From Dehalococcoidia bacterium (GTDB lineage Bacteria > Chloroflexota > Dehalococcoidia > SpSt-223): a stretch of 64,000 bases of DNA. Position 1 is the first letter of the stretch; each line of letters starts with the position of its first letter. The stretch covers positions 1-64,000 of the forward strand of contig JANWZD010000009.1 in assembly GCA_025054935.1 (NCBI GenBank), read 5' to 3'. This document shows, in pieces, positions 14,400 to 55,687 of the stretch. A model generated the notes under the pieces. It was not told where the DNA came from and did no database searches. It saw only the letters and a list, made by a program, of their open reading frames with translations. The position numbers and the translations under genes are program-made.

Positions 14400-15511
14400 T
14401 GGGACGCCGGCTTGTCGCTTTCTCGGTCGCGCTCGCTCTCCTCGCGCTCTGCTTCTGCGTCGTCGTCGCGGTGGCGCTGCCGCGGCTGCTCGAACAGGCC
14501 GGCGCGCTCGGCGCCGCCCCGGTGCGCAGCGGCAGCTGGTACGAGGTCTGGTTTACGGTTCCGGGCTCGCCTGACCGGCCGGCTGAGCGGCGCAACAGCA
14601 TTGATGAACGGCTCGTCGCCTTCATCGACGGCGCGCAGCGGCGTCTTGATGTCGCTGTCTACGACTTCGATCTCGCGAATGTGGCAGAGGCGCTCGTGCG
14701 AGCGAAACAGCGCGGCGTCGAGGTCCGCTTCGTAACAGACGCTGACACGGTGGGAAGCGACAATCGCGCCATCCAGACGGCGATCGCCCGGGTGCGGCAG
14801 GGCGGCATCCCCATCGTCACGGACAACCGCGGGGCGATCATGCATCACAAATTCGTCGTTCGCGACAGCGACGCCGTCTGGACCGGCTCGTATAACTTCA
14901 CCGCTAACGACACATTTCGTCACAACAACAATGTGCTTGTGATCTTCTCGCCTAAGGTTGCCGAAAACTACGAAGCAGAGTTCGAGAAGATGTTTGCTCG
15001 CCGCCAGTTTGGGCCGAGTAAGCCAGCTGGCGTTCCGAACCCGCGTGTCGTGATCGATGGGTCCGCAATCGAGACGCTGTTTGCTCCACAAGACAAAGTC
15101 GCGGAGCGCGTTGTCGCCCGCGTGCGTGAGGCGAGAACAAGGATCGTCTTTCTGGCGTTTCAGTTCACCAGTGATTCGATCGGCGACGCAATGATCGCGC
15201 GAGCGAGAAACGGCGTGAAGGTCGCCGGTGTTGTTGAGCGCACGGGCTCAGAAACTCAGTTCGCCGAGTTTCGAAAGCTGCAGGCTGCCGGCATCGAGGT
15301 GTATCAGGATGGCAATCCGTACATCATGCACCATAAGGTGATCGTGATCGACGATCGCATCGTCATGCTTGGCTCCTATAACTTCTCGGAGAACGCCGAT
15401 CGAAATAATGACGAGAACCTCCTGATCATCGAGGACCGCGGGCTTGCGCAGCGCTATCTCGAGGAGTTTGACCGCGTGCGCGAGGCGGCGCGCCGCGCAG
15501 AGCAGCGCTAA
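14399..15511 (+). CDS. Membrane-anchored phospholipase D-like protein
   Basis: A 370-residue PLD-superfamily protein. An N-terminal hydrophobic segment (about 7-30) acts as signal or anchor, placing the enzyme outside the membrane. Two HKD motifs are intact: HHKFVVRD and HHKVIVID, each followed by GSYNF and an N/E-rich turn, so both halves of the active site are present. PLD-like enzymes of this size include nucleases (Nuc type) and phosphodiesterases; the substrate cannot be told. It is coupled by a one-base overlap to the upstream small protein. Confidence 0.88.
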   Translation: MGRRLVAFSVALALLALCFCVVVAVALPRLLEQAGALGAAPVRSGSWYEVWFTVPGSPDRPAERRNSIDERLVAFIDGAQRRLDVAVYDFDLANVAEALVRAKQRGVEVRFVTDADTVGSDNRAIQTAIARVRQGGIPIVTDNRGAIMHHKFVVRDSDAVWTGSYNFTANDTFRHNNNVLVIFSPKVAENYEAEFEKMFARRQFGPSKPAGVPNPRVVIDGSAIETLFAPQDKVAERVVARVREARTRIVFLAFQFTSDSIGDAMIARARNGVKVAGVVERTGSETQFAEFRKLQAAGIEVYQDGNPYIMHHKVIVIDDRIVMLGSYNFSENADRNNDENLLIIEDRGLAQRYLEEFDRVREAARRAEQR

Positions 15512-15693: not shown

Positions 15694-15723
15694 TTGACGG
15701 GGAAAGAGGATAGCGCGTATAAG
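15694..15723 (+). promoter_or_regulatory. Promoter of SWIM zinc-finger gene
   Basis: TTGACG (15694-15699), 18 bp spacer, TATAAG (15718-15723). It lies 178 bp before the start codon, so the transcript has a leader of about 170 nt. Confidence 0.55.
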
Positions 15724-15729
15724 ATACTG

Positions 15730-15900
15730 CACTCGGGAAGCGGCGCTGCCGCTGAGCGGCAGCGGACGGCGAGGAAGCCGAATGCAGCGTTTGCTGGCAA
15801 CCGACTGGTCTCTAGGCGACACCGCAACAGGTTCCGTTGCGGTGTCGCGCGTTTTCGGGGGGCGCCGTTTCCTGAAGCAGTCTCGGTGTCGGGAGGTTCC
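15730..15900 (+). ncRNA. Structured 5' leader, possible regulatory RNA
   Basis: The leader begins near 15730. It contains a GCTGCCGCTGAGCGGCAGC hairpin, then GGAAGCC ... GGCAACC segments that loosely recall the S-box (SAM-I) core, and a 13 bp perfect hairpin followed by TTTT. No match to a full riboswitch consensus could be made, and the downstream gene has no methionine link. Confidence 0.3.
15816..15848 (+). terminator. Strong leader hairpin (attenuator-like)
   Basis: GCGACACCGCAAC / GTTGCGGTGTCGC: a perfect 13 bp stem with loop AGGTTCC, followed by GCGTTTT. It sits 52 bp before the SWIM start codon, so it may attenuate transcription of that gene. Confidence 0.55.
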
Positions 15901-16182
15901 ATGAACTCGAGCGTCATCGGCAAGATCGAGAAGGCCCGCCGCTACGCGCAGGAGCGCAACCGCATTCATTTCACCTCGCTTTCGGCGACCTTCCATGGCG
16001 AGAACGCCGATCACACGGTGACGCTGGAGAACGGCCGCTGGCACTGCAGCTGTCACTTCTTCAAAGGCTGGAACTTCTGCAGCCATACGATGGCGTTCGA
16101 GCGTGTGCTCGAAGGAATGCTTCCGGCCACTGCCCGCGCCCAAGGCTTGGACTTCGGAGAGCCGCCAGCCGCCTCACTCTAA
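15901..16182 (+). CDS. Small SWIM zinc-finger protein
   Basis: A 93-residue protein containing one SWIM zinc finger: CSCHFFKGWNFCSH (CxC-x8-CxH), preceded by an H-TVTLENGRWHCSC strand. SWIM fingers bind DNA or proteins and occur in SWI2/SNF2 proteins, MuDR transposases and stand-alone bacterial proteins. ATG at 15901 has GGGAGGTTCC before it; the longer upstream frame runs through the structured leader and was rejected. Its 3' end overlaps that of the convergent membrane gene by 9 bp. The specific function is unknown. Confidence 0.82.
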   Translation: MNSSVIGKIEKARRYAQERNRIHFTSLSATFHGENADHTVTLENGRWHCSCHFFKGWNFCSHTMAFERVLEGMLPATARAQGLDFGEPPAASL

Positions 16183-55614: not shown

Positions 55615-55687
55615 GCGGGTGTAACTCAGCTGGCAGAGTGCTTGCTTCCCAAGCAAGATGTCGTGGGTTCGAATCCCATCACCCGCT
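55615..55687 (+). tRNA. tRNA-Gly (anticodon CCC)
   Basis: A 73-nt tRNA. Acceptor GCGGGTG / CACCCGC with discriminator T, D arm ACTC...GAGT, anticodon stem CTTGC / GCAAG with loop TTCCCAA giving anticodon CCC, variable ATGTC, T arm GTGGG-TTCGAAT-CCCAT. It reads GGG glycine codons. The 3' CCA is not encoded. It is the only tRNA in the window, divergent from rpoB. Confidence 0.93.

Follow-up and report, generated by a model that had tools for sequence, protein, structure and literature searches.

A candidate ribosome-controlled transcription attenuator ahead of a small SWIM zinc-finger gene in Chloroflexota

We propose that the leader of a small SWIM zinc-finger gene from a Dehalococcoidia bacterium is probably a ribosome-controlled transcription attenuator, in which the ribosome itself would block the terminator. 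The leader, about 120 nt in length, lies 5' of the SWIM gene between a sigma-70-like promoter and an intrinsic-terminator-like hairpin. It was found within a 64,000-nt stretch of contig JANWZD010000009.1, here called the window. The features of the locus, including a candidate upstream open reading frame (uORF), are listed below.

15694 to 15723, + strand: sigma-70-type promoter TTGACG-N18-TATAAG, read from the sequence, with identical boxes in the related loci L004 and L005
15744 to 15764, + strand: 5' leader hairpin CGCTGCCGC/GCGGCAGCG, a predicted fold without covariation support
15771 to 15775, + strand: Shine-Dalgarno-like GAGGA within the loop of a hairpin (CGGC/GCCG, predicted), with 6 nt between it and the uORF ATG
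15782 to 15904, + strand: candidate uORF of 40 codons, its ATG 34 nt before the terminator stem and its frame passing through the terminator
15816 to 15855, + strand: hairpin resembling an intrinsic terminator (13 bp, loop of 7 nt), with TTTT, called from sequence, fold, genus alignment and a phylum-wide counterpart
15901 to 16182, + strand: gene for the 93-residue SWIM zinc-finger protein, called from sequence, orthologues and zinc ligands

A sequence-only reading of this DNA had named a strong promoter and a perfect 13-bp hairpin followed by TTTT, and both calls hold. The boxes TTGACG (15694–15699) and TATAAG (15718–15723), with an 18-nt spacer, are sigma-70-like. The hairpin arms GCGACACCGCAAC (15816–15828) and GTTGCGGTGTCGC (15836–15848) enclose the loop AGGTTCC and form 13 of 13 pairs, and TTTT follows at 15852–15855 after a 3-nt gap. 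Promoter, hairpin and T-run are common to all three genus members examined (the window, L004 and L005), and across these three sequences the terminator stem is the best-kept part of the leader. The terminator tail is modest and the -10 box is not ideal by consensus. A simple consensus scan of the window picked up neither the SWIM promoter nor the SWIM terminator, the former because TATAAG breaks the scan's last-base rule and the latter because the T-run begins 3 nt past the stem. The automatic terminator scan likewise reported hairpins for the window other than 15816–15848; since its tail rule missed the window terminator, this was placed by hand in the uORF tests and in the survey of 193 leaders described below. 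A degenerate pattern run over 393 genomes of the class gave 98 matches, seemingly mostly coding, and was informative only in showing the element in a third member of the genus, G001, whose locus by position is L005. Locus L003 (genome G017, E 9e-4) resembled coding sequence by eye and was dropped as a relative.

The leader had also been described as GC-rich and structured. We found that positions 15731–15858 fold at -67.1 kcal/mol versus -54.0 (sd 3.6) for shuffled sequences, a z of -3.64, and that none of 200 shuffles folds as low. The stems upstream of the terminator are without covariation support; the consensus fold of the three genus sequences carries an unfavourable covariation term of +1.56, which leaves these stems weakly supported. 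Conservation in relatives, which the sequence-only reading had proposed as a check, is thus seen for the promoter and the terminator and not for the other stems. A segment read earlier as GGAAGCC includes GAGGA, followed by the ATG at 15782, and is kept in all three genus members. Since the other stems lack covariation support, this conserved block makes better sense as a start codon with its ribosome-binding site than as the core of a riboswitch. The GAGGA(A/U) loop might also allow a CsrA-like reading.

The GGCAACC resemblance alone would speak for an S-box or another known riboswitch, and it had been called weak and perhaps due to chance. Rfam, suggested at the outset as a check, was run, and no family matches the leader: no Rfam 15 family reached its gathering score there, a search of 321 bases around the leader at E up to 10 gave nothing relevant and nothing of a riboswitch kind, and the loci of 20 relatives gave only a tRNA. 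The resemblance is due to chance, and we give a known riboswitch next to no weight. The sole gathering-score Rfam match in the whole window is a tRNA gene (RF00005) at 55615–55687.

The SWIM gene is isolated: the PLD-type gene ahead of it stops at 15511, and the next long frame runs in the opposite orientation. The pattern CxC...CxH is that of SWIM zinc ligands, and the ligands C49, C51, C60 and H62 are invariant in 18 orthologues; beside them an N-terminal IGKIEKA...YA stretch is strongly kept. A Pfam search of the window protein had a single hit, the SWIM zinc finger PF04434, at 14.3 bits and E 0.029, short of the gathering score of 19.6. The predicted fold has a mean pLDDT of 82.9. Foldseek gave no match to it at E ≤ 0.001, a PDB sequence search gave a single match at E 0.75, and structure comparison gave only weak matches, among them a stretch of ZSWIM8, chain 9rwz_N (Z 2.5, rmsd 2.5, 48 aligned, 25% identity). 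An orthologue was present in 157 of 201 sampled Chloroflexota genomes, nearly always as a single copy. The genes that recur next to it vary by lineage and give no functional hint. No role for the small SWIM protein was found in the open-licence papers searched, and the accessible part of PMC4833913 does not mention SWIM. The leader offers a regulatory handle on this small protein, which is widespread in Chloroflexota.

We then asked how often a terminator precedes SWIM across the phylum. A first set comprised 147 upstream regions (29 orthologue loci, 100 fetched stretches, 17 further loci and the window), and a second set added 54 from families f13 and f104. These 201 regions contained 194 unique ones, 193 of which were long enough; L083, which lies at a contig end, was excluded from all counts, and L006–L020, which carry no family label, from the family counts. 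A terminator-like hairpin was present in the last 200 nt before SWIM in 88 of 146 regions, versus 29 on the reverse strand and 24–38 in five rounds of shuffling. A slightly wider tail rule detected an intrinsic terminator in 131 of 193 unique leaders, 12–115 nt upstream of the SWIM start, and 41 of the 53 families sampled have a terminator ahead of SWIM. This supports the original description of the leader as attenuator-like. The scan, which overlooks some terminators that by eye seem genuine (those of L058, L178 and L217 among them), detected none in the remaining 62 of 193 leaders. Some relatives carry a plain promoter 35 nt before SWIM (L008, L014). The leaders without a detected terminator and the plain promoters of some lineages together indicate that the switch is not universal. 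One call, L007, was a false positive with its promoter downstream of the hairpin. The leader of L145 has, by eye, a tRNA-like stretch just before its terminator. L006, from a relative of Leptolinea, has the element as well; partly on this ground, family f104 may be Anaerolineaceae-like and f13 Dehalococcoides-like.

The sequence GCAC falls within the first 14 nt of the terminator 5' arm in 71 of 131 SWIM leaders versus 55 of 1,124 other terminators, in counts that carry no kinship correction. Termination alone does not seem to explain why the letters of the stem are kept. The GCAC enrichment is not called for by a pure ribosome model, and a stem-binding protein is possible. A protein or ligand might bind the leader or its hairpin, for example SWIM itself on the stem as a feedback loop, with the uORF secondary; the recurrence of GCAC, and the stem being the most conserved part of the leader within the genus, would fit such binding. 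Related leaders may inflate the uncorrected GCAC counts, the stem letters differ among lineages, and the upstream part has no conserved fold, all of which speak against it, and we regard binding of this kind as the controlling event as quite unlikely.

The sequence-only reading had missed the upstream reading frame, and the ribosome is a likelier controller of this leader than a ligand-binding RNA fold. The block RAGGA-6 nt-ATGC is kept in the window, L004 and L005. At the same ATG position L004 has a uORF of 42 codons whose frame also runs through the terminator, and L005 has one of 10 codons with its stop at the stem. The TGA of the window uORF overlaps the SWIM ATG (ATGA), which resembles leader-peptide reinitiation as treated in the accessible part of PMC4833913; the likeness is limited to the window, as neither L004 nor L005 has the overlap. 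The window uORF is therefore a candidate that its Shine-Dalgarno sequence, its position and the genus-wide ATG support, and its stop does not.

Reading the leaders by eye, we repeatedly saw a short ORF ending where the stem begins. An ATG uORF led by a Shine-Dalgarno sequence and ending at the stem was found in 27 of 78 leaders (shuffles: mean 1.8, maximum 6), and a similar test gave 26 of 78 for SWIM versus 2 of 329 for other terminators of the same loci. When GTG starts were included, 90 of 131 leaders had an ORF ending between -9 and +25 of the stem start, mostly of 10–12 codons, with TGA (51), TAA (22) or TAG (17) as the stop. Classed by ATG or GTG ORF, the 131 leaders comprise 76 with a stop no more than 9 nt from the start of the stem, 16 with the stop inside the hairpin, 32 with an ORF that runs through, and 7 others; the window falls in the run-through class.

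The reading frame of these ORFs was compared with the two other frames. Among 96 leaders with an ATG 28–45 nt ahead of the stem, the first stop fell no more than 9 nt from the stem in 62, 9 and 14 for frames 0, +1 and +2, whereas among 1,095 other terminators, 272 of them with such an ATG, the values were 23, 28 and 24. When each of the 22 genera of family f104 was represented by a single leader, the values were 16.1, 1.7 and 2.1, and taking one leader per family with the strict ±9 window gave 6.1, 3.1 and 3.0 of 22. The strict stop-at-stem rule thus appears to rest mainly on f104, f13, f110 and f133. A Shine-Dalgarno-led ATG 27–45 nt before the stem occurred in a mean of 14.1 of 41 families, and with f104, f13 and f110 removed in a mean of 12.1 of 38, versus 4.5% of background terminators (binomial p 6e-8). 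To judge from these counts, the position of the start, rather than that of the stop, is the feature that does hold across families. Starts of the form ATGCG occur in nine families. The pattern ATGCGA-N15-40-GCACGCG matched in at least 58 of 61 f104 genomes, with many matches apparently coding and its uniqueness to SWIM unproven.

Of the 90 leaders, 71 have a TTGA[CA]-type promoter ahead of the uORF (shuffled mean 2.7), and 1 has a promoter-like site with its -10 box past the terminator. These two counts together indicate that SWIM is reached through the terminator. With the promoter lying in between in those 71 leaders, the hairpin being the terminator of an upstream gene was ruled out for most leaders. 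In 12 of the 71 leaders with a promoter call, the uORF ATG comes 4–11 nt after the -10 box (for example L201, L219, L168, L160, L164, L215 and L216, mostly from f104); this spacing suggests that some uORFs may be leaderless.

Beyond promoter, start and stem, the leaders share little between lineages by eye. From the 4th codon on, the synonymous share of changes in the uORF was 0.25 versus 0.23 expected, which is neutral, whereas the SWIM codons of the same 53 pairs, which are not independent, gave 0.72 versus 0.21; the uORF peptides differ among relatives. Neutral codons would also fit a uORF that is not translated, a concern that the frame test answers. They would equally suit an independent small RNA or small-peptide gene, with SWIM reached by a fixed share of read-through and no regulation, and in the window promoter and terminator do form a compact unit, about 125 nt long, with that look. 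An RNA with a function of its own should be more alike between lineages than these leaders are, it has no Rfam match, and it would leave unexplained both the terminator that 41 of 53 families have immediately ahead of SWIM and a stop-to-stem geometry far from background. We consider it unlikely.

Classical attenuators require a competing hairpin, and arrest or amino-acid peptides require kept residues. A search for an antiterminator found that the 5' arm pairs with upstream sequence no better than with shuffled sequence (mean z +0.42, n = 131); 1.5% of the 131 leaders had a z below -1.65, and the window had -0.60. The missing antiterminator signal and the neutral peptide codons leave the ribosome as a moving block. 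An attenuator of the trp or arrest-peptide type, in which stalling of the ribosome at particular codons releases an antiterminator, would share with these leaders the uORF and the terminator; besides the lack of an antiterminator signal and of kept peptide residues, the stop lies at the stem, not more than 20 nt away as in the accessible part of PMC4824070, and we hold this type to be very unlikely.

Published measurements are consistent with direct blocking. In the accessible part of PMC4824070, Li and co-workers report that the translating ribosome represses almost completely a terminator lying a few bases past a stop codon, that termination recovers by about 30 bp, that uncoupled translation abolishes the repression, and that in amino-acid attenuators the leader ORF and the terminator are more than 20 bp apart. 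According to the accessible part of PMC10314930, a terminator is obstructed by a ribosome held where the tiny ORF msrDL ends. The ribosome covers up to 12 nt past the stop, according to that of PMC4833913, and this is about the length of the 5' arm in SWIM leaders.

Under the preferred reading, polymerase would start at the promoter and meet the intrinsic terminator before SWIM, while a ribosome would initiate some 34 nt before the stem, at the ATG of the uORF. If the ribosome stood at the end of the uORF (in the window, if it were moving into the stem) while polymerase made the 3' arm, it would cover the 5' arm, the hairpin could not form, and SWIM would be transcribed. If no ribosome had started, or if it lagged, the terminator would form and SWIM would be off. 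The peptide would not be the signal; start, length and stop alone would be kept. The leaders appear to have the arrangement that such a switch implies, namely promoter, short ORF, intrinsic terminator and gene with no second promoter, and the uORF appears either to end within reach of a ribosome at the stem or to enter the stem. Promoter, terminator and uORF start can be read in the sequence, as can a stop at the stem in several families. We infer that transcription stops at the terminator, that ribosomes translate the uORF and that the ribosome turns SWIM on. Against direct blocking, the window and L004 lack a stop at the stem and their frames run on; by analogy, the run-through uORF of the window would work likewise, in the manner of pyrBI.

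In pyrBI of E. coli the leader frame extends across the terminator, whose hairpin cannot form when a ribosome follows polymerase closely. In whiB7-type attenuation a gene for a small Cys-rich protein stands behind a uORF and a terminator. The SWIM leader shares this last layout; whiB7 belongs to Actinobacteria, and we claim no homology. The window and L004 share the run-through geometry of pyrBI, which is also discussed in the accessible part of PMC4824070. Unlike pyrBI, with its long leader ORF and its pauses, most SWIM uORFs have 10–12 codons and end at the stem, and the T-rich pause motif TTNTTT is only weakly enriched (15 of 90 versus a shuffled mean of 8.6 and maximum of 14), with no pause site demonstrated. 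The msrDL-msrD leader, as described in the accessible part of PMC10314930, is similar in that a ribosome at the end of a tiny uORF blocks a Rho-independent terminator; unlike msrDL, a drug-sensing arrest peptide, the SWIM uORF does not keep its peptide letters. The element is absent from Rfam and was not met in the open-licence papers searched, and its kind, the ribosome-controlled attenuators, is already known.

More tentatively, the leader may sense the coupling of transcription and translation throughout the phylum, possibly as an ancestral device, in which the uORF would be a pure ribosome track with an irrelevant peptide and would set the level of SWIM. If so, the switch would read how closely the first ribosome trails polymerase, or the speed of release at the stop, and a conserved zinc-finger protein would answer to the state of coupling. 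Already as an attenuator, the leader would show in nature, and independently of the peptide, how a ribosome near a stop codon silences the terminator just past it, an effect measured in constructs and pyrBI in the accessible part of PMC4824070. The leader makes transcription-translation coupling directly testable in Chloroflexota.

A different leader precedes SWIM in the lineage of L012, L013, L015, L016 and L017. It is GC-rich, apparently conserved, about 110 nt long and without a T-run, and perhaps it acts on translation.
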